NCBI GenBank assembly: GCA_016193065.1
Contig: JACPSX010000042.1
Span: 1-10,308, forward strand
Length of the DNA stretch: 10,308 nt
Source of the DNA: Candidatus Tectimicrobiota bacterium
GTDB taxonomy: Bacteria; JACPSX01
Direction: 5' to 3'
Shown: piece after piece, positions 1,510 to 10,308 of the stretch
Layout of the letters: every line of letters begins with the position of its first letter
How positions within the stretch are numbered: the stretch's first letter is position 1
Program-made: the position numbers and the translations under genes
Notes under the pieces: generated by a model
The model's input: the letters and a program-made list of their open reading frames with translations, nothing else
Databases searched by the model: none
Told to the model about the DNA's origin: nothing

Positions 1510-2502
1510 ATGCAGATGAGGAGAGCAAATGGCTATCTGATGGTTTTTCTCTTTCTATTGAGTTTTGCACTGGTGATGCCAGTTCAGGGGCAGGCACAGT
1601 TGGAGACGAAAAAATTGATTGTGGCCCTCTCTGCGCCTACGCCGACATTCTTTCCCCTGGTGCTGGCGAGAGATAAAGGCTTCTACAGGGCAGAGGGTCT
1701 GGAGGTTGCCACCGATATCGTGCAATCCGGTGTTCAGGTCCAAGCCCTGATTGCCGGGAAAGTTTTTGCGGCGGTTCCGCGCATCGAGCCCATGTTGCAA
1801 GGGGTTAAAGCAAAGATCATCCTGGTCGTGGGCTACAAGCCTTCCTTTGACTTGATGTCCCAACCGGAGCTGAAGAGCTTTGCGGATCTAAAGGGGAAGG
1901 TGGTAGCTGTCTCGGGCCGGGGGAGCACAACCGATGCGGTGACACGCGAAATTCTGGAAGCGAACGGTCTCAATTACGAAAAAGATGTGGTCCTTCTGGT
2001 CGCCGGAAACATGTCAACCATGTACGCGGCTCTGGCCGCCAAGCGGGTCGCCGGCGCTTTGCTGGCCATGCCGTTCAACTTCATGGCGATGGACCAGGGA
2101 TTTCACAAACTCGCCTTTGCCGGCGATTTCGCAAGAGCCATTCAGGGCGGCTTGATGATTATGGACGGCAGCCTGAGGTCGGAGTCGGACATGGTCCTGA
2201 AAGTCACCAGGGGGACCCTGAAGGGGATGCTAGCCTATCGCAGGGGCGGAGAGGAGACTTTGCAGCTATTGAGCCGTTTTATCAAGACAGAAGACCTGGA
2301 GCTGCTCAAGAGAATTTACGAGTACCACGTGCAGACCATTACGGAAGATGGAACTATTTCCGAGCGACTCATGGACGACCTGATCCAGCAGGCGGAGTCT
2401 GGGGCGAAAGGGCAAACGGCGGTCGGACGCGCGGACATATTTGACTTTTCCCCGGCCCGCAAAGCCCTTCAAACCCTCCAGGTTTCTGGGTGGCGGCCGT
2501 AG
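1510..2502 (+). CDS. ABC-type solute-binding protein, NMT1/SsuA-like (binding protein 1)
   Basis: A 330-residue periplasmic binding protein of the nitrate/sulfonate/taurine/NMT1-like type. The start is ATG 1510 (or ATG 1516), behind GGGAGAGG at 1501-1508. The frame is open back to a TTG at 1480, but that runs through the T-run and would spoil the signal peptide. The N-terminus is a classical signal peptide: basic MQMRRAN, a hydrophobic core YLMVFLFLLSFALVMPV, and likely cleavage after QGQA. There is no lipobox cysteine. The mature part has the family layout: KLIVALSAPTPTFFPLVLARDKGFYRAEGLEV, then ALIAGKV, then SFADLKGKVVAVSGRGSTTD and a second lobe. These proteins hand a small anion, often a carboxylate or sulfonate, to an ABC permease. 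No permease or ATPase gene is adjacent. UbiD-1 follows after 36 bases, so co-transcription is likely. The ligand is unknown; an aromatic acid is an inference from context. Confidence 0.88.
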   Translation: MQMRRANGYLMVFLFLLSFALVMPVQGQAQLETKKLIVALSAPTPTFFPLVLARDKGFYRAEGLEVATDIVQSGVQVQALIAGKVFAAVPRIEPMLQGVKAKIILVVGYKPSFDLMSQPELKSFADLKGKVVAVSGRGSTTDAVTREILEANGLNYEKDVVLLVAGNMSTMYAALAAKRVAGALLAMPFNFMAMDQGFHKLAFAGDFARAIQGGLMIMDGSLRSESDMVLKVTRGTLKGMLAYRRGGEETLQLLSRFIKTEDLELLKRIYEYHVQTITEDGTISERLMDDLIQQAESGAKGQTAVGRADIFDFSPARKALQTLQVSGWRP

Positions 2503-2538
2503 ACTGTCTTTCTTGACGACTTCAAGGAGAACCATACC

Positions 2539-3972
2539 ATGCCCTATGGGGATTTACGCGAGTACCTGCAAGCCCTGGAAGCGCACGGCAAGCTGCATAG
2601 GGTGACCAAGGAAGTGGATAAGGACTGGGAGATTTCCGCCGTCGGGCGCTCGACGTTCCGGCGCATCCCCGCCGAACGCCGACCGGCGCTGTTGTTCGAG
2701 CGGGTCAAGGGTTACACAATTCCCGTACTGGTAGGGGCTCTGGGAGCCTCGCTGGAAGTGTACGCGCTTGCCCTTGAGACCACCTTGCCGGGAATACCTG
2801 GGAAGTGGGAGAAGGCCTTAGCGAATCCGATCCCGCCGGTGCGGATCGCCACGGGCCCGTGCAAGGAAAACATCCTCATGGAAGATCAGGTGGATCTGGG
2901 GAAATTTCCCATTCCCACCTGGACCGCCCGCCAGGATCCGGGGCCTTACATCAATTTGCCCTACGTGTGCTCAAAAGATCCCGAGGACGGTTCTCGCAAC
3001 GTGGGCACGTACCGAATGCAGGTGAAAGGAAAAAACAAGACGGGTTTGTTCATCAGCACCTTTAAGAATATTCTCCCCCACATTGCGAAAAATGAGAAGC
3101 TGGGAAGGCCCACGCCGGTCGCCGTGGTGATCGGCGCGGATCCCACCATCGGCATGACGTCGGTTGCCACTGTGCCCTACGACGTCGACGAATTTGCGCT
3201 TTCCGGCGGCTTGCGCGGGGCTCCCGTGGAGCTGGTGAAGTGCGAGACGAGCGACATTGAGGTACCGGCTACTGCCGAGATTGTTCTGGAGGGAGAGATC
3301 CCTCCCAATGTCCGCGAGCACGAGGGACCTTTTGGCGAGCATACGGGGTACATGGGGCCTCCAGGAGATACCTTTGTCTTTCATATTAAATGCATCACGC
3401 ACCGGAACAATCCGATTTATCAAGGGATCATCAGTCTGCTTCCCCCGAGCGAGAGCAGTTGCATCCGTCTTGCCGCCCGTGAATTCCCGATTCTAAAACA
3501 TTTGCGAGATCGTCTGGGGTTGCCCGTTGTCGATGTGCACTTGAAGGAGAGTGGGGGTACGGGACCTTACCTGGCGATCTCCATGAAGAAGCAGTTTCCC
3601 GAGCAGGTAAAGCAGGTCATTTGGGGAGCCTGGTCGTTCGAACCGACTTTCGGGAAGATCGTCGTTGTCGTCGATGATGACATCGATATCCGGGACGCTA
3701 ACGCACTGGATTGGGCCATCTGCTACCGCATGCAGCCTGACCGGGACGTGTTTATTGTCCCTGAGGCGGCGGCCTATCGCCTGGACCCGTCCACGGCTCC
3801 GGTCGATGTCCCCTCCCATCACCCGTCCCGACGCATCGGATCGAAGCTGGCAATGGACGCGACCCGCAAACACGAGTTTCCGGGCGTAGCTGTGCCGCCG
3901 AAGGAGCATCTGGATCGCGTCTGGAGACAGTGGGAAGAATACGGCTTTCCCAGGTCTTATCCGGAGTATTAG
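2539..3972 (+). CDS. UbiD-family decarboxylase (UbiD-1)
   Basis: A complete 477-residue UbiD-family enzyme, predicted cytoplasmic and dependent on prenylated FMN made by a UbiX protein not seen here. Such enzymes decarboxylate, or in reverse carboxylate, aromatic, heteroaromatic or unsaturated acids. The ATG at 2539 follows AAGGAG (2523-2528). Key residues, aligned from memory to Aspergillus niger Fdc1: N154 and R159 in NVGTYRMQV (Fdc1 N168, R173), E218 in YDVDEFALSGGLRG (E233), and E262 and E267 in EGPFGE (E277, E282). The full catalytic Arg-Glu-Glu set is therefore present. The metal-ligand histidine (Fdc1 H191) is not found; F175-K176 stands at that place. The C-terminal domain carries VVVVDDDIDIRDANALDWAICYR. 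It resembles UbiD-2 more than the partial enzyme at the window start. The large molybdenum subunit follows after 103 bases. The substrate is unknown. Confidence 0.93.
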   Translation: MPYGDLREYLQALEAHGKLHRVTKEVDKDWEISAVGRSTFRRIPAERRPALLFERVKGYTIPVLVGALGASLEVYALALETTLPGIPGKWEKALANPIPPVRIATGPCKENILMEDQVDLGKFPIPTWTARQDPGPYINLPYVCSKDPEDGSRNVGTYRMQVKGKNKTGLFISTFKNILPHIAKNEKLGRPTPVAVVIGADPTIGMTSVATVPYDVDEFALSGGLRGAPVELVKCETSDIEVPATAEIVLEGEIPPNVREHEGPFGEHTGYMGPPGDTFVFHIKCITHRNNPIYQGIISLLPPSESSCIRLAAREFPILKHLRDRLGLPVVDVHLKESGGTGPYLAISMKKQFPEQVKQVIWGAWSFEPTFGKIVVVVDDDIDIRDANALDWAICYRMQPDRDVFIVPEAAAYRLDPSTAPVDVPSHHPSRRIGSKLAMDATRKHEFPGVAVPPKEHLDRVWRQWEEYGFPRSYPEY

Positions 3973-4063
3973 GGGGGTAGCGATCACGAAAGGATAAGCA
4001 GTTCGTCTTCCCATGGATGTAGGTGAGGTCTATCGGGGAGATCCTGGAAACTTTTTACCTGTT

Positions 4064-4069
4064 GAGGAG
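4064..4069 (+). promoter_or_regulatory. Ribosome binding site that sets the large-subunit start
   Basis: GAGGAG ends 6 bases before ATG 4076. The earlier in-frame ATG at 4013 would add 21 residues unlike any molybdenum hydroxylase N-terminus I know, and has no purine-rich site at a normal distance. Confidence 0.65.
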
Positions 4070-4075
4070 CAACTT

Positions 4076-6517
4076 ATGGCTGATGTGATCACCGGAAACG
4101 GGAAGAAGCTGGTGGGGACGAGCGTGCGGCGCAAGGAGGACCCGGATGTGCTCCTGGGCCGGGAGACTTACACAGCGGACCTGAAGTTGCCGGGGATGGT
4201 GTACGCGGCCATCTTCCGCAGCCCCTATGCCCACGCCCTCCTGAAGCGGGTCGATTTAAGGCGAGCCCTGGCCCTGCCCGGGGTAATCTTTGGGATCACG
4301 GGGGATAGTCTTCCTGACTTCCTCAAACCCATGTCCTTGTCGCCCTATCGTAATGTGGAGTGGGCCGAACTGAAAGTTAAGAATCCCCAGATGAATTATT
4401 TCCCCCATGTGTGCCTGGCTCGGGAGAGGGTGCGGTTTGTAGGGGAGCCGGTGGCGGCTGTGGTGGCCACGGATCCGTACGTGGCTGAGGACGCCCTGGA
4501 GCTCATCGAAGCCGAGTTTGACCCGCTGCCTGTCGTCACCTCGGTGGAACAGGCCCTGCAGCCCGATGCCCCGTTGCTCTATGAAGAGTGGGGCGATAAC
4601 GTCCAACTCCGGTTTAAAGTCTCGGGAGGAGATGTGGAGCGCGCGTTCCGGGAAGCGGATCTGGTGGTGAAGGAGACGGTGATCAGTTCCCGGTATACGG
4701 GGACGCCGATGGAGCCCCGGGTGGTCATCGGGAGGTACAGTGCCGAGGAGAACTACCTGGAGGTGTGGGACACGACTCAGCGGACCCATTCCGTGAGCAT
4801 GTTCGTGCGCAACTCGATCGATCTGCCGGACTTGCAAGTCCGGGTCATCACCCTGCGGGTGGGAGGGGGCTTTGGTCAGAAGCGGGGGTTCTACTCCGAA
4901 GAGGTGTTGATCCCGCTCTTGTCGATTTTGACCCATCGGCCGGTGAAGTGGGTGGAGACGCGCAGCGAGCACATGGTGGGGACAAGCCACGGGCGCCAGC
5001 AAGTCCACCAGATGGAGGCGGCGGTCAAGCGCGATGGGACGGTGCTGGCGCTGCGGGACCGCATCCTTGCCGACCTGGGCGTCGCCTACCCCACCTCGGG
5101 CACCATCTCCGTCATGACCACCTTGATGTTCATACCCGGCGCCTACCGGATCCAAAATTACGAAGGCGAGCTTCTCGGCGTGAACACCAACAAGACCGTT
5201 TACGGTTCGCACCGGGCCTTTGGGAAGGCCGACGCGGCCTACGCCATCGAGCGCTTCATGGACGTAATTGCTCAGGAACTGGGGATGGACCCGGCCGAAC
5301 TGCGCCTCAAGAACTTTATCCAGCCCCATGAGTTCCCCTATCTTTGCGTGACGGGCTCCCGTTACGACAGCGGCAACTACCCGCAGGCGTTTCAAGATGC
5401 CCTGAAACGAGCAGGCAATGAGAAGTGGCGAGAGGAGCAGAAACGGGGGTGGCAGCAGGGGCGCTATCTGGGCATAGGGGTGAGCCTGGTCATCGAGCCC
5501 AACAGCGCCAGCAAGGTGGCCACTTACAACGCCGGTCACTACGGGGTACGGATGCAGATGGACCCCACGGGCGGGGTCACCGTGTTCTGCGCGGGCAACG
5601 ACGAGGGTCAAGGGCACGGGACAGCCATCGGGCAGTTGGTGGCGGACGAGCTGGGGGTGGAGTTCGATCGGGTTCACACGGTGGAGGGGGACAGCCTGTT
5701 ATGTCCGTTTGGGTCCGGGTCCTACTCAGCCCGCTTCGCGGTGGTGGGCACCTCGGCGGTGATTATGGCCAGCCGGCGGCTCAAGGAGAAGCTCGTGCGG
5801 ATTGCAGCCCAGGTGTTGGGGGTAGGCGTGGAGGAGGTGCGGGCCGAGGGGGGAGCCGTGGAGGTGCTGAAGGACCCCTCGCGCCGGCTCAGTTATCAGC
5901 AGATCGCCCAGGTTGCCTACTTCGAGGTGCTGCGGCTCCCTGCTGGGGTGGAGCCGGGCCTGGAGGTGCTCTACTACTACATTGATTCGAATTTGCAGGC
6001 TGCGGATCTCAGGAAGGTTCCCGATGAGCGGGGACGCTATGCGGTCTACTCCACCTTCCCCTATGCGGCCAATGTGGCAGTGGTGGAGGTGGACGTGGAG
6101 ACGGGCCGGGTGAGACTGCTGGAATATGTGAGTACGGATGACTGCGGGCGGATGATTAACCCGGCGGAGGTGGTGAGTCAGTACATGGGGGCCTTTGCGC
6201 ACGGGTTGGGCGGGGCGTTTTACGAGGAGCTGGTCTACGACGAAGGGGGGCAGCCTCTGGCGCAGAATTTCAAGGACTATTTGGTGCCGACGGCGCTGGA
6301 GGTCCCGCGCGTAAAGCTGGCGCACATGGAGACGCCGAATCCGTTTACTCCGGGAGGCTTTAAGGGGGCTTCGGAGACGGGGGCCGTGGGGCCCACGCCG
6401 ACGATTGCCAATGCGGTGGAGGATGCTTTGAGGCCTTTGGGGGTGAAGCTGCGCCGCATCCCGATCACTCCTGCGATTGTCTGGGAGGCCATCCAGAAAG
6501 CCAAGGGGTTGAAGTGA
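4076..6517 (+). CDS. Xanthine dehydrogenase-family molybdopterin-binding (large) subunit
   Basis: An 813-residue catalytic subunit of a molybdenum hydroxylase (XDH/CoxL/HcrA superfamily), which oxidises its substrate with water-derived oxygen at a Mo-cytosine-dinucleotide centre. The start is ATG 4076. The N-terminal hammerhead domain (about 8-130) opens with KKLVGTSVRRKEDPDVLLGR; the molybdopterin domains follow. By residue offset from bovine XDH: Q235 in DTTQ (bovine Q767), GGGFG at 263-267 (F798 = F266), R380 and F382 in GSHRAFGK (R912, F914), and the base E767 in KGASETG (E1261), followed by PTIANAVEDAL. The Q-to-F and F-to-R spacings equal the bovine ones (31 and 114). Bovine E802 is replaced by R270, and the R880 position appears to be T348, so a purine substrate is unlikely. 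The CO dehydrogenase AYXCSFR motif is absent. Its FAD and Fe-S partners lie 2.9 kb downstream, separated by UbiD-2 and binding protein 2. The substrate is unknown. Confidence 0.93.
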   Translation: MADVITGNGKKLVGTSVRRKEDPDVLLGRETYTADLKLPGMVYAAIFRSPYAHALLKRVDLRRALALPGVIFGITGDSLPDFLKPMSLSPYRNVEWAELKVKNPQMNYFPHVCLARERVRFVGEPVAAVVATDPYVAEDALELIEAEFDPLPVVTSVEQALQPDAPLLYEEWGDNVQLRFKVSGGDVERAFREADLVVKETVISSRYTGTPMEPRVVIGRYSAEENYLEVWDTTQRTHSVSMFVRNSIDLPDLQVRVITLRVGGGFGQKRGFYSEEVLIPLLSILTHRPVKWVETRSEHMVGTSHGRQQVHQMEAAVKRDGTVLALRDRILADLGVAYPTSGTISVMTTLMFIPGAYRIQNYEGELLGVNTNKTVYGSHRAFGKADAAYAIERFMDVIAQELGMDPAELRLKNFIQPHEFPYLCVTGSRYDSGNYPQAFQDALKRAGNEKWREEQKRGWQQGRYLGIGVSLVIEPNSASKVATYNAGHYGVRMQMDPTGGVTVFCAGNDEGQGHGTAIGQLVADELGVEFDRVHTVEGDSLLCPFGSGSYSARFAVVGTSAVIMASRRLKEKLVRIAAQVLGVGVEEVRAEGGAVEVLKDPSRRLSYQQIAQVAYFEVLRLPAGVEPGLEVLYYYIDSNLQAADLRKVPDERGRYAVYSTFPYAANVAVVEVDVETGRVRLLEYVSTDDCGRMINPAEVVSQYMGAFAHGLGGAFYEELVYDEGGQPLAQNFKDYLVPTALEVPRVKLAHMETPNPFTPGGFKGASETGAVGPTPTIANAVEDALRPLGVKLRRIPITPAIVWEAIQKAKGLK

Positions 6518-6552
6518 ATTCAAGGAAGTGAATTCAAGGAAGTGAATTCAAG
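6511..6552 (+). repeat. Perfect tandem repeat, 3 x 14 bp
   Basis: GAAGTGAATTCAAG occurs three times without a mismatch at 6511-6524, 6525-6538 and 6539-6552. The first copy contains the TGA stop of the large-subunit gene (6515-6517); the last runs up to the ribosome site of UbiD-2. Each junction reads AAGGAAGTG, a weak ribosome site almost touching a GTG. Replication slippage is the simplest origin. Confidence 0.95.
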
Positions 6553-6555
6553 GGA

Positions 6556-6562
6556 AAGGGGG
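6556..6562 (+). promoter_or_regulatory. Ribosome binding site that sets the UbiD-2 start
   Basis: AAGGGGG ends 6 bases before the GTG at 6569. The upstream in-frame GTG at 6542 lies inside the third 14-bp repeat, with AAGGA only 1-2 bases ahead of it, too close for good initiation. Confidence 0.55.
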
Positions 6563-6568
6563 ACTGCC

Positions 6569-8215
6569 GTGGCGGGATATTATCCAGATTTCAGATCCTA
6601 TCTGGAGCACTTGGACAGTCAGGGTCTTCTCCAGCGCATCCGCCGTCCCATCAATAAGGATACGGAGATGCACCCTCTGGTCCGCATCCAGTTCCGTGGG
6701 CTGCCGGAGAGCGCCCGCAAGGGGTTTCTCTTTGATCAGGTGATTGATTCTCAGGGGAAGAGATACGACATTCCCGTTGCCGTCGGCTGCATTGCCGCTT
6801 CCAAACAGGTCTATCTCGTGGGGATGCAGTGCCGGGACGAGGAAGAGTTGACCCGCTGCTGGACCCGCGCCCAGGTGGAGCCCATACCTGCGGTGCTGGT
6901 GTCAGGGGGTCTGGCGCAGGAAGTGGTTCACCAAGGCAAGGACCTGAGCCTCCCCGGAGGAGGGATGGACATGATCCCGGTTCCCGTCTCCACGCCGGGG
7001 TTAGATAACGCTCCCTACATTACCGCGGGTCACTGGATCACGAAGGACCCCGAGACCGGCATCCGCAACGTCGGCAACTATCGCGGGATGATCAAGAGCA
7101 CGAACCGCATCGGGTGCTATGCGGGCAGCTCCAAGGGCTTGACCGACCACTGGCTCAAATGCAGGAAACAGAGGATCCCTTTGCAGGTGGCAATTGCCAT
7201 CGGTGTGACTCCCAACGTCGCTTGCACGGCAATCGCGAAATTGCCCATGGACGTGGATGAGTTGGCCGTGGCGGGGGGGCTGGCGGGAGAGCCCCTGGAA
7301 GTGGTGCGGTGCAAAACCGTCGATCTGGAGGTTCCGGCCCACACGGAAATCGTGATTGAGGGGGTCATCTCCACGGACGCCCTGGAATACGAAGCCCCGT
7401 TCGGGGAGTTTACGGGCTACATGGGGCTCAAGGAACTCATGTACTACATGGATGTGACCTGCATCACCCATCGCCGAAACCCCACATACATGGCGTTCCT
7501 GAGCCAATTTCCCCCCAGCGAGTCCAGCAAGATCCGGCAGATCACCTGGGAGCGCATTCTTTACAAATATCTGGCCGTTGACGAGGGGATCAAAGGGGTC
7601 CAGGAGGTGGCTCTGCACGAGCCCACGGGCAGTTGGGGCCTGTGCGTCATTCGCCTGGCCAAGCAGAAACAGGACGATGCCTGGAGGGCGCTGCAGGGGG
7701 TTGCCCGCCGGACCACGGTAGGTTGCAAAATGGTTATCGCCGTGGACGAGGATGTGGACTGTCGCGATCCGGACGCGATCAACTGGGCTTTGAGCTTTCA
7801 TATGCAACCGTACCGGGACCTGCAGGTCGTGGATTGCGAAAAACCCATGCTTCTCGATTATTCCACTGCCCCACCGGGACAGGGGGTGATGAGAGGTCCC
7901 GCCGCCGAGCAGGAGCCTCGCTCTACATGCCTCCTCCTGGATGCCACCCGGAAATGGGCCTACCCTCCGGTCAGCCTTCCCAGGAGGGAGTTCATGGAAC
8001 GCGCTCTGGAGATTTGGCGGGAGGAGAAGTTGCCCGAACCGGATCTCAAGGAGCCCTGGTTCGGTTACCCGTTGGGCTGTTGGAACCAGGAGGATGAGGG
8101 AGAGGCTCAACTCGCCGTACGAGGGGAGCACTACATAACCGGCGAAAAAATGCGGCAGAGTCGGCATCCGCTTGGACAGGGGGAAGTGCCGAAGGGGAGT
8201 GCGGACTCAGGATAG
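6569..8215 (+). CDS. UbiD-family decarboxylase (UbiD-2)
   Basis: A complete 548-residue UbiD-family, prenylated-FMN-dependent enzyme, about 70 residues longer than UbiD-1. The start is GTG 6569 (MAGYYPDFRSYLEHL); 6542 is the longer alternative. Family residues, aligned from memory to Fdc1: N167 and R172 in NVGNYRGM, E231 in MDVDELAVAGGLAG, and E275 and E280 in EAPFGE. Spacings match UbiD-1 exactly (N to E 64, E to E 44). The metal-ligand histidine is again missing: S188-K189 occupies its place. The C-terminal domain has VIAVDEDVDCRDPDAINWALSFH, LDATRKWAYPPVSLPR, and then a tail of about 60 residues (PWFGYPLGCW...GEHYITGEKM) that UbiD-1 lacks. The shared DATRK and WA(I/L) motifs make UbiD-1 and UbiD-2 paralogues. 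They could act on successive substrates or form a mixed complex, as PpcA and PpcB do in phenylphosphate carboxylase; neither is shown. The substrate is unknown. Confidence 0.93.
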   Translation: MAGYYPDFRSYLEHLDSQGLLQRIRRPINKDTEMHPLVRIQFRGLPESARKGFLFDQVIDSQGKRYDIPVAVGCIAASKQVYLVGMQCRDEEELTRCWTRAQVEPIPAVLVSGGLAQEVVHQGKDLSLPGGGMDMIPVPVSTPGLDNAPYITAGHWITKDPETGIRNVGNYRGMIKSTNRIGCYAGSSKGLTDHWLKCRKQRIPLQVAIAIGVTPNVACTAIAKLPMDVDELAVAGGLAGEPLEVVRCKTVDLEVPAHTEIVIEGVISTDALEYEAPFGEFTGYMGLKELMYYMDVTCITHRRNPTYMAFLSQFPPSESSKIRQITWERILYKYLAVDEGIKGVQEVALHEPTGSWGLCVIRLAKQKQDDAWRALQGVARRTTVGCKMVIAVDEDVDCRDPDAINWALSFHMQPYRDLQVVDCEKPMLLDYSTAPPGQGVMRGPAAEQEPRSTCLLLDATRKWAYPPVSLPRREFMERALEIWREEKLPEPDLKEPWFGYPLGCWNQEDEGEAQLAVRGEHYITGEKMRQSRHPLGQGEVPKGSADSG

Positions 8216-8250
8216 GAGAGGCTGGAGAAAGGGGGCCAGGACATGGCCTC

Positions 8251-8256
8251 AGGAGG
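8251..8256 (+). promoter_or_regulatory. Ribosome binding site that sets the binding protein 2 start
   Basis: A perfect AGGAGG ends 7 bases before ATG 8264. The ATG at 8243 is also preceded by a usable run (AAAGGGGG ending at 8235). The two starts differ by only seven residues, ahead of the signal peptide. Confidence 0.5.
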
Positions 8257-8263
8257 GGAAAAA

Positions 8264-9286
8264 ATGGTACCAGGGACCTGTTCGCAAGGGGAAAGTCACC
8301 GGCTGCTTGCGGGACTTGTTTTTATTCTCCTGCTCCTGATCTTTTTTTCTATCTCCCGTCCGGTAGAGGCAAAGATCCGCGTGGCCTACAGCAGTGTGAG
8401 CGGGGTTTTCATGGGATTGTTTGTGGCCCAGGACGCCGGCTATTTTGCTCAACAGGACCTTGATGTGGAAATCCTCTACATCGCCAGCGGCACCACGATG
8501 ACTCAGGCCCTGCTCGGCGGCGACGTGCAGATGGGATTTGGGGGCGGGGTCGGGGCAATTCGGTCCAAGTCGCAGGGAGCCGATCTGGTGATTGTCGGCA
8601 TTTCCGTCGACCGCATGAGCTTCTCCATCTATGGCAGGAAGGAGGTCCGCACCCCGGCCGATCTCAAGGGCCGCAAGTTGGGGGTGACTCGTTTTGGTGG
8701 CGCTCCGGACGTTTGGGCTCGAATTGTTCTGTCTCGGCTTGCCATGGTCCCCGAAAAAGACGTGCCCCTGATCCAGATGGGAGGGCAGCCGCAGATTCTG
8801 GCTGGGCTCGCTGGAGGAGGAATCGACGCGGGAGTGCTCTCCCCACCTATGCTTTTCAAGGCAGCGGACCTGGGCTACCACGAGGTCATCAGCTTTCAAA
8901 GCTCGCCCATTCCCTTCCCCCATATGGCCCTTGTCACCTCTGGGGCGTACGCAGCGAAGCGCGAGGACGAAGTGGAGCGTCTTCTGCGGGCCTACGTGAT
9001 CGGGGTCCACCGGGTCAAGACGGATCCGGTCTTCACCAAAAAAACTCTGGGAAAGTACACAAAGGTACAAGATACCAAAGTCCTGGATCGGACCTACGAT
9101 CTGTGGAACGGGGAGATCCAGAGAGGCCTATCTCTCTCCGAGGAAGCCCTCAATGGAGCCATTGCCGACGTAGCCAAGACCGATTCGAAGGTTCGAAATT
9201 TGCCCCGGGAGAGTTTCCTCAATCCGGTTTTTGTCAAAAGGCTGGAAGCTTCCGGGCTGCTGGAAAAGCTCTATGGCAAGAATTGA
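8264..9286 (+). CDS. ABC-type solute-binding protein, NMT1/SsuA-like (binding protein 2)
   Basis: A 340-residue periplasmic binding protein from the same broad family as binding protein 1 but clearly diverged from it. The start is ATG 8264 (alternative ATG 8243). The signal peptide has a very hydrophobic core LLAGLVFILLLLIFFSI and probable cleavage after RPVEA; there is no lipobox cysteine. The mature chain shows the two-lobe layout: KIRVAYSSVSGVFMGLFVAQDAGYFAQQDLDVEI, ALLGGDVQMGFGGGVGAI, then TPADLKGRKLGVTRFGGAPD and GLAGGGIDAGVLSPP. The PADLKGRKLGV element is the usual hinge-region signature of NMT1/SsuA-like proteins. No permease or ATPase is adjacent. It lies 48 bases after UbiD-2 and 98 bases before the FAD subunit, inside the enzyme operon, so its ligand is probably tied to the pathway. 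It may share an ABC transporter encoded elsewhere. The ligand is unknown. Confidence 0.88.
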   Translation: MVPGTCSQGESHRLLAGLVFILLLLIFFSISRPVEAKIRVAYSSVSGVFMGLFVAQDAGYFAQQDLDVEILYIASGTTMTQALLGGDVQMGFGGGVGAIRSKSQGADLVIVGISVDRMSFSIYGRKEVRTPADLKGRKLGVTRFGGAPDVWARIVLSRLAMVPEKDVPLIQMGGQPQILAGLAGGGIDAGVLSPPMLFKAADLGYHEVISFQSSPIPFPHMALVTSGAYAAKREDEVERLLRAYVIGVHRVKTDPVFTKKTLGKYTKVQDTKVLDRTYDLWNGEIQRGLSLSEEALNGAIADVAKTDSKVRNLPRESFLNPVFVKRLEASGLLEKLYGKN

Positions 9287-9384
9287 GGGGAAACGCTGAC
9301 TGTGGAGCGAAGGGTGTTTGGACGGTTTTCTCGAAACGCGGTTCGCCCAGGAAGAAATAGGCGGCTGAACCTGGAGGCTTTGCT

Positions 9385-10278
9385 ATGTTTCCTGCCCGAT
9401 TCAATTATTACCGCGCGGAGTCTTTACCCGAAGTCTTAGACCTTCTAGCCCGACACGGGTCCGAGGGGAAAATACTGGCTGGGGGCCAGAGCGTTATCCC
9501 GCTGATGAAGTTGAGGCTGGCTTCACCGGCAGTGTTGATTGATATTAACCGGGTGCGCGAGCTGCAGGCCATCGCCGGCGACGAGCGTGGGGGCCTACGC
9601 ATTGGTGCCTTGACCCGCCACCACCACATGGAGATCAAAAAATGGCCCAGATCGCTCGCCTTGCTTATGGATGCCGCCAGAGACATCGGAGATCCGCAGG
9701 TTCGAAACCTGGGGACGGTAGGCGGCGCCTTGGCGGAAGTGGATCCCGCCGGAGACTGGGGCCCCGTCATGCTGTCCCTGGGAGCCAGGGTTCGGGCTGT
9801 TAGCCCCAAAGGAGAACGGACTCTTCCGATCGACGAGTTGTTTGTGGATGCCTTCACGACTTGCCTGGCGGAGGACGAACTGCTGCGGGAGGTGGAGATC
9901 CCTCCTCTTTCCGACGGGACCGGCACCGCTTACCTGAAGATGGAGCGCAAGGCCGGGGACTTTGCCATTGCCAGCGCCGCCGTGCGGGTAAATCGGTCCC
10001 CCGATGGTCGCTGCCAGGACGTGGGGATCGGCCTGGGGGGGGTGGGGCTGGTGCCCCTGCGGGCGCGCGGAGCAGAAGATCTCCTGCGCGGTTCAAATCT
10101 CGAGGAAGAGCTGATTCGCGAGGCGGAGGAATCAGTACGGAAGGAGTGCGAACCCCTCGCGGACATTCGGGGATCCGTGGAGTTCAAGCGGCAAGTGGTA
10201 GGAGTACTGTTCCGCAGAGCCCTCAAAATTGCCCTGCGACGGGCGCAAGGAGAGGAGGTGGAGGCAGGACATGTCTAA
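9385..10278 (+). CDS. FAD-binding (medium) subunit of a molybdenum hydroxylase
   Basis: A 297-residue FAD subunit (CoxM/XdhB/HcrB type) that passes electrons from the Fe-S subunit to an external acceptor. The start is ATG 9385, with GGAGG (9372-9376) 8 bases ahead. The two flavin-binding motifs sit where CO dehydrogenase has them: AGGQS at 32-36 and TVGG at 111-114, followed by ALAEVDPAGDWGP. The C-terminal domain (about 180-290, starting near AYLKMERKAGDFAIASAAV) is the usual CO dehydrogenase flavoprotein C-terminal domain. The cysteine-rich insertion that carries an extra [4Fe-4S] cluster in 4-hydroxybenzoyl-CoA reductase is absent; only three cysteines are scattered late in the chain. That favours an ordinary hydroxylase over a ring-reducing enzyme. 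It overlaps the next gene by 8 bases. It presumably assembles with the large subunit at 4076-6517, though a second large subunit beyond the window cannot be excluded. Confidence 0.92.
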   Translation: MFPARFNYYRAESLPEVLDLLARHGSEGKILAGGQSVIPLMKLRLASPAVLIDINRVRELQAIAGDERGGLRIGALTRHHHMEIKKWPRSLALLMDAARDIGDPQVRNLGTVGGALAEVDPAGDWGPVMLSLGARVRAVSPKGERTLPIDELFVDAFTTCLAEDELLREVEIPPLSDGTGTAYLKMERKAGDFAIASAAVRVNRSPDGRCQDVGIGLGGVGLVPLRARGAEDLLRGSNLEEELIREAEESVRKECEPLADIRGSVEFKRQVVGVLFRRALKIALRRAQGEEVEAGHV

Positions 10279-10308
10279 ACATCTGGTGAAAATTCGAGTG
10301 AATGGTCA
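10271..10308 (+). CDS. [2Fe-2S] small subunit of the molybdenum hydroxylase, N-terminal fragment
   Basis: The ATG at 10271 overlaps the end of the FAD subunit gene by 8 bases and reads MSKHLVKIRVNG before the window ends. The K-I-x-V-N-G pattern is how CoxS/HcrC-type two-cluster ferredoxin subunits begin. A ribosome site, GGAGAGGAGGTGGAGG (10249-10264), lies in front within the upstream gene. The order FAD subunit then Fe-S subunit, with translational overlap, is common in this family. No cysteine ligands are visible in the 12 codons, so the call rests on position plus the short N-terminal match. Confidence 0.75.
   Translation, partial: MSKHLVKIRVNG

Follow-up and report, generated by a model that had tools for sequence, protein, structure and literature searches.

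The stretch of DNA analyzed here (the window) covers bases 1-10308 of contig C143, the first half of its 20,681 bases, and comes from a metagenome-assembled genome (MAG) of a Candidatus Tectimicrobiota bacterium, which is 2.9 Mb in size, divided among 294 contigs, and 86% complete. All clear genes of the window lie on the + strand, and together they form a candidate catabolic system in which UbiD-type enzymes, the subunits of a molybdenum (Mo) hydroxylase, and binding proteins are interleaved behind a regulator. The regulator belongs to the IclR family (569-1450, TTG start; PF01614 146 bits, PF09339 39 bits) and is followed by binding protein 1, which is of the NMT1/SsuA type and has a hydrophobic N-terminus (1510-2502; PF09084 55 bits), by the 477-residue UbiD-A (2539-3972; PF01977 237 bits and TIGR00148 339 bits, the latter above cut-off), and by the 834-residue large subunit 1 of a Mo hydroxylase of the xanthine oxidase family (4013-6517; PF02738/PF20256 231/251 bits, and PF01315). 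The second half of the set consists of the 557-residue UbiD-B (6542-8215, GTG start; PF01977 180 bits), binding protein 2, again of the NMT1/SsuA type (8243-9286; PF09084 73 bits), the FAD (medium) subunit of the hydroxylase (9385-10278; PF00941 149 bits, PF03450 88 bits), and the Fe-S (small) subunit (from 10272). The open reading frame of binding protein 1 opens with a TTG at 1480, and the ATG at 1510 is its likely start. Both binding proteins exceed the PF09084 cut-off of 20.5 bits and score under the model cut-off of TIGR01728 (46 and 78 bits).

The original prediction, made from the window alone, had described seven same-strand genes with short gaps, two of them paralogous UbiD enzymes, and the Pfam and NCBIfam matches bear out every gene that it named. 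Two details needed amendment. The window ends 12 codons into the Fe-S subunit gene (10272-10308); the gene itself is real and continues past a run of 31 N, which begins at contig base 10309, precisely at the end of the window, to contig base 10789 (PF01799 114 bits, with the Fe-S cysteines present). While UbiD-A and UbiD-B are both full-length, a third UbiD had been overlooked, such that there are three at the locus. The contig opens within this gene, UbiD-C, of which the last 144 codons, the C-terminal end, are present (2-436, + strand; PF20696 89 bits) and the 5' part lies off the contig. From the IclR gene to the FAD subunit gene the gaps are 24-98 nt. The large-subunit gene lies 40 nt 3' of UbiD-A and 24 nt 5' of UbiD-B, and UbiD-B interrupts the series of hydroxylase genes, with the FAD and Fe-S genes located beyond UbiD-B and binding protein 2.

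UbiD-A and UbiD-B are 38% identical across their shared part. UbiD-A contains all three UbiD domains (PF20695/PF01977/PF20696), UbiD-B matches PF01977 and PF20696 and adopts the UbiD fold in its AlphaFold model (pLDDT 85.9), and UbiD-C matches PF20696 alone, its gene being cut by the contig end. The nearest solved relative is HmfF of Pelotomaculum (PtHmfF; structures 6h6v/6h6x), which is the top Protein Data Bank (PDB) entry for UbiD-A (6h6v, 1.4e-82) and for the UbiD-B profile (2.4e-85), and 6h6v is also the closest fold to the UbiD-B model (E 2e-39). At the position of HmfF His296, the alignment of UbiD-A has Ser, and an Arg is kept opposite HmfF residue 304; UbiD-B differs at both of these positions, which we take to matter for substrate. 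The catalytic Arg-Glu-Glu is kept in UbiD-A (R159/E262/E267) and in UbiD-B (R181/E284/E289), and the three residues of UbiD-B are invariant in an alignment of 61 homologues. The corresponding E(D)RE motif is conserved among UbiD enzymes and integral for activity (PMC8379154). UbiD-B shares its fold and the Arg-Glu-Glu with the group of HmfF, AnInD, and AroY (PMC8988006) but differs from it in its low identity to HmfF (28-29%) and in a conserved C-terminal tail. This tail (∼480-545) lies outside of the PDB-matched stretch, is modeled as helices mostly with high confidence, and contains five residues that are invariant among the 61 homologues (P505, W506, G508, G512, and W514). UbiD-B and these homologues represent an uncharacterized subfamily of the UbiD enzymes.

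The hydroxylase is complete as a member of the xanthine oxidase family, with large, FAD, and 2x[2Fe-2S] subunits, Mo-site motifs, and the active-site Glu. Large subunit 1 contains GGGFGQK, a Mo-site motif, and KGASE. A second large subunit, 54% identical to the first, is encoded in the downstream half of the contig (GTG at contig 12654, to 15005, + strand; L052:4654), and in both of them GGGFG is present and the active-site Glu of CoxL aligns with a KGA-x-E segment. The similarity of the second subunit begins at ∼12591, just past a stop and 5' of the first ATG, GTG, or TTG, which suggests that either its start codon is doubtful or the gene is slightly damaged. Because the contig has a single FAD and a single Fe-S subunit gene, the two large subunits may share one FAD/Fe-S pair. 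The PDB entries nearest to large subunit 1 are 8uem (CoxL), 7dqx (6-hydroxypseudooxynicotine dehydrogenase), and 1t3q (quinoline 2-oxidoreductase), all with similar scores (426 bits each for 7dqx and 1t3q). The latter two are of the same family as the enzyme described here and differ in belonging to N-heterocycle pathways. Matches to the NCBIfam models for CO dehydrogenase fell short of the cut-offs (527 bits where 950 are required, and 491 where 991 are), and the CSFR motif of CO dehydrogenase is replaced by SHRAFGK in subunit 1 and by AHRGFGK in subunit 2. A form I CO dehydrogenase (CoxL) was ruled out, as the motif is missing from both.

To find related loci, the UbiD-B alignment was scanned against 84,980 genomes, which returned at least 581 relatives, and gene neighborhoods were taken from the best 80. 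These are 45-56% identical to UbiD-B and come from Tectomicrobia, Rokubacteria, Deltaproteobacteria, Chloroflexi, Binatia, Bacillota, and other groups. Many binding proteins, transporters, second UbiDs, AMP ligases, and Mo enzymes surround them. A second same-strand UbiD lies within 2.5 kb of UbiD-B in 18 of the 80 loci, and nine of these are of the UbiD-C type. UbiD-C belongs to a group other than that of UbiD-B, and its relatives (59-65% identical) adjoin UbiD-B homologues at five loci (L069, L103, L106, L110, and L117). Since its relatives pair with UbiD-B elsewhere, the UbiD-C fragment is likely part of the system. The closest match to the UbiD-A/UbiD-B pair is in a Tectomicrobia locus (L063), with the order NMT1, UbiD-B (56%), possible cupin, and UbiD-A (48%).

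Loci that combine UbiD with a Mo large subunit were found in Deltaproteobacteria, Bacillota, Binatia, Tectomicrobia, and Rokubacteria. UbiD genes occur in 9 of 16 loci that were picked solely by similarity to the large subunit, a fraction to be read against a high UbiD background, as the 16 were drawn from UbiD-B-carrying genomes. In L147, L148, L149, and L151, UbiD and binding-protein genes are interleaved among split hydroxylase subunits. Proteins with weak similarity to M29 peptidases adjoin UbiD in L147 (11459-12571) and L149 (4396-5466 and 15616-16671). We regard two loci as the closest analogues of the one described here. The first (L145, Deltaproteobacteria) consists of IclR (35%), UbiD-B (45%), a cyclase, an Xsc-like thiamine pyrophosphate (TPP) enzyme, FAD subunit, Fe-S subunit, large subunit (47%), DHDPS, and solute-binding proteins, and the second (L123, Bacillota) of an amidohydrolase, large subunit, CoxG, FAD subunit, Fe-S subunit, a binding protein, and UbiD-B. 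To estimate how often such linkage arises by chance, circular shifts were used. On two Binatia chromosomes, which are related to each other, 17 of the 51 UbiD genes among the matches listed have a Mo large subunit no more than 7 kb away, ∼three-fold more than the 5.5 expected and a value that was reached by 0 of 2000 shifts. The signal was weaker in a Tectomicrobia genome, for which contig extents were partly approximated: 10 of 46 UbiD genes, again among the matches listed, are near a Mo large subunit (5.4 expected, p 0.046), and 17 of 46 have an NMT1 gene within 5 kb (9.1 expected, p 0.013). The statistical support for linkage is moderate.

Based on these findings, our current hypothesis, to which we assign a probability of roughly 0.6, is that the locus is a peripheral catabolic operon under IclR control for the uptake, ring hydroxylation, and prenylated flavin mononucleotide (prFMN)-dependent decarboxylation of an aromatic or heteroaromatic acid, which probably has more than one carboxyl group. 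The binding proteins, namely the two of the NMT1 type and a TAXI/TRAP system encoded downstream, would bind the acid in the periplasm and deliver it. The three-subunit Mo hydroxylase, with its alternative large subunits, would then add a water-derived hydroxyl group to the ring, and the prFMN-dependent UbiDs, perhaps acting afterwards, would strip ring carboxyls, aided by the added electron density. An ACMSD-like amidohydrolase and a thiol-dioxygenase-like protein, also encoded downstream, could catalyze later steps or a side branch, and further enzymes would open the ring. The role in uptake, oxidation, and decarboxylation that had been proposed originally is thus consistent with the enzyme families, the catalytic residues, and the recurring UbiD, Mo hydroxylase, and binding-protein loci; the seven-gene order is not conserved at the loci compared.

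The downstream half of the contig was read to base 20,437, and all of its genes are also on the + strand. The Fe-S subunit gene is followed by CoxG (contig 10790-11236; PF06240), a 203-residue protein with no Pfam match (contig 11252-11863; L052:3252-3863), and an HbpS-like protein (contig 11864-12295; PF03928). The 203-residue protein has weak similarity to mercaptosuccinate and 3-mercaptopropionate dioxygenases (best E 7e-7), a hint that the pathway may have a branch for organosulfur compounds. Beyond large subunit 2 are the TAXI binding protein (contig 15211-16266), a fused TRAP permease (contig 16303-18375), the amidohydrolase (contig 18588-19637), which among solved structures is closest to ACMSD decarboxylases (2.5e-38), and a CinA/MoCF-type protein (contig 19805-20437). 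Spacing is tight from IclR through the HbpS-like gene (-7 to 98 nt) and mostly wider beyond it (358, 205, 36, 212, and 167 nt), which is suggestive of a single long operon with two or three further units behind it. The contig has no ABC permease or ATPase gene for the NMT1 proteins, which might have a sensing role or work with a transporter encoded elsewhere. The thiol-dioxygenase-like protein, the SsuA-like binding proteins, and the Xsc-like TPP enzyme of L145 also raised the idea of a sulfur-heterocycle (thiophene-type) substrate, which we keep as an idea only.

A number of points weigh against a shared catabolic operon. Neither UbiX (TIGR00421), the flavin prenyltransferase that supplies prFMN, nor any PF02441 protein was found in the MAG, although its 17 UbiDs need this cofactor. 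As PF02441 is present in 14 of 14 control genomes and ∼14% of the MAG is missing, its UbiX may simply be unassembled. Among the genes of the contig, no CoA ligase, UbiX, or ring-cleavage dioxygenase of a known pathway was recognized, and neither was XdhC. The earlier remark that no CoA ligase is visible therefore extends to the whole 20,681-base contig as read, and the search for the remainder of the operon, which had been expected downstream, recovered the rest of the Fe-S subunit but none of these enzymes. The nearest relatives of the large subunit (L143 and L144, 56-57%) have no UbiD nearby, and the hydroxylase clade is thus not obligately tied to UbiD. Moreover, the operon is assumed from the gap sizes. 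Finally, the seven-gene order was found in none of the 80 UbiD-B loci or the 16 large-subunit loci, a comparison with distant bacteria, as the nearest genomes in the set share only the domain with the source organism. The near mirror-image arrangement that had been pointed out (binding protein, UbiD, large subunit, then UbiD, binding protein, remaining subunits) is present as stated. Its absence from these loci suggests that the symmetry is probably incidental, and we dropped it as a meaningful feature because relatives reshuffle the same genes.

One comparison, drawn from the outset, is with 5-hydroxymethylfurfural (HMF)/furoate degradation. The known cluster consists of hmfABCDE, hmfF, and psfC and includes a CoA synthetase, a 2-oxoglutaryl-CoA hydrolase, and a UbiX-like accessory protein for HmfF (PMC12064950). 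Like the present locus, this cluster pairs a Mo hydroxylase of three subunits with a UbiD decarboxylase, so the presence of both in one pathway is already known. The parallel holds insofar as HmfF is the nearest solved UbiD, by sequence for both full-length proteins and by fold for UbiD-B, and UbiD-A keeps the Arg opposite HmfF residue 304. It does not extend to the remaining HMF genes: the contig, read from its start inside UbiD-C to base 20,437, lacks a furoyl-CoA synthetase, a 2-oxoglutaryl-CoA hydrolase, and a UbiX-like gene, the order differs, and IclR, NMT1, and TAXI/TRAP genes are present along with three UbiDs and two Mo large subunits. A canonical HMF/furoate operon is ruled out by the missing CoA synthetase, acyl-CoA hydrolase, and UbiX-type accessory. 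Because these partner genes are missing and extra genes are present, we did not file the locus under HMF/furoate; the combination is a variant and not that pathway. That it is nonetheless a version of it, with one of the UbiDs decarboxylating furandicarboxylate in the manner of HmfF and the Mo enzyme taking the part of HmfABC on furoyl-CoA, is highly improbable given also the low identity of UbiD-B to HmfF, the Ser in place of His296 in UbiD-A, and the changes at both positions in UbiD-B. Picolinate-type pathways combine a Mo hydroxylase with an amidohydrolase-2 decarboxylase, and the Mo hydroxylase and ACMSD-like amidohydrolase in one neighborhood, as also seen in L123, are reminiscent of them. 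The locus differs from such pathways in its extra UbiDs and in having no flavin monooxygenase or dihydroxypyridine dioxygenase; a literature search for the picolinate pathway returned no paper.

Other assignments of the enzymes can be envisioned. UbiD reactions are reversible (PMC8379154), and the UbiDs could be carboxylases like those that act on phenylphosphate or benzene, perhaps in the form of UbiD/UbiD heteromers, with the Mo enzyme, reductive or hydroxylating, acting later. The same-strand UbiD partners of UbiD-B in 18 of the 80 loci, nine of which are UbiD-C-like, would fit this, as would the best NCBIfam model of UbiD-C, phenylphosphate carboxylase beta, which scores far under its cut-off. 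Yet no phenylphosphate synthase-like gene or CoA ligase is present at the locus, four strong matches to haem-copper oxidases in the genome imply that strictly anaerobic carboxylation is not needed, and binding proteins of an acid-importing type are abundant, so we consider carboxylation unlikely. The Mo enzyme could instead be an aldehyde or CO dehydrogenase with no part in ring hydroxylation. Among NCBIfam models it scores highest with those for glyceraldehyde dehydrogenase subunits, below cut-off (609 and 286 bits; cut-offs 790 and 350), its top PDB match is a CoxL, and a CoxG homologue follows. However, CoxG accompanies many Mo hydroxylases, the CSFR motif is replaced, and the ring hydroxylases 7dqx and 1t3q score nearly as high, which makes this assignment doubtful as well. 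We judge it similarly unlikely that two independent modules, each of a binding protein and a UbiD, merely lie beside an unrelated Mo hydroxylase without a common pathway. The genome is crowded with UbiD genes (17, from 18 domain hits with one gene split) and with about 50 NMT1 proteins, conservation does not extend to the exact gene order, and the linkage of UbiD to Mo large subunits is marginal in the Tectomicrobia genome. Against this stand the nesting of UbiD-B within the hydroxylase gene set with gaps of 40 and 24 nt, the like interleaving in four other loci, and the enrichment in Binatia.

Taken together, we favor uptake, hydroxylation, and decarboxylation of a (hetero)aromatic acid by one pathway, and the original remark that the pathway may differ from HMF/furoate degradation fits the downstream genes (second large subunit, amidohydrolase, dioxygenase-like protein, TAXI/TRAP), which match no well-described pathway that we found. 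A limited search of open-access full texts returned no description of a UbiD and Mo hydroxylase combination like this one, and the open-access literature yielded nothing on UbiD with xanthine dehydrogenase or molybdopterin in MAGs and nothing on topic for UbiD expansion in these phyla. Tentatively, and short of what we would call probable, the locus could belong to an undescribed, widespread system in which UbiD-B, a partner UbiD, and an uncharacterized Mo hydroxylase clade act on heteroaromatic (di)carboxylates, with modules that multiply and reshuffle; the groups concerned are uncultured Tectomicrobia, Binatia, Deltaproteobacteria, Rokubacteria, and Bacillota. The source MAG encodes six Mo large subunits, and it has a second locus with UbiD, Fe-S, and a Mo large-subunit fragment (L013, contig C208), accompanied by a branched-chain-type binding protein (cluster of PF13458). 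Genomes of 4-5 Mb in the comparison set contain 59 (G047, Tectomicrobia JACPUC01), 41 (L091), 34 (L106), and 38 (L117) UbiD domains. UbiD-catalyzed ring carboxylation and decarboxylation are wanted for bio-based chemicals, and few UbiDs have known substrates. Loci that join a UbiD, a Mo hydroxylase, and a binding protein offer a route to them, as the ligand of the binding protein points to the acid. In uncultured bacteria of soil, groundwater, and sediment, the large UbiD sets suggest a little-explored route for the turnover of aromatic organic matter.

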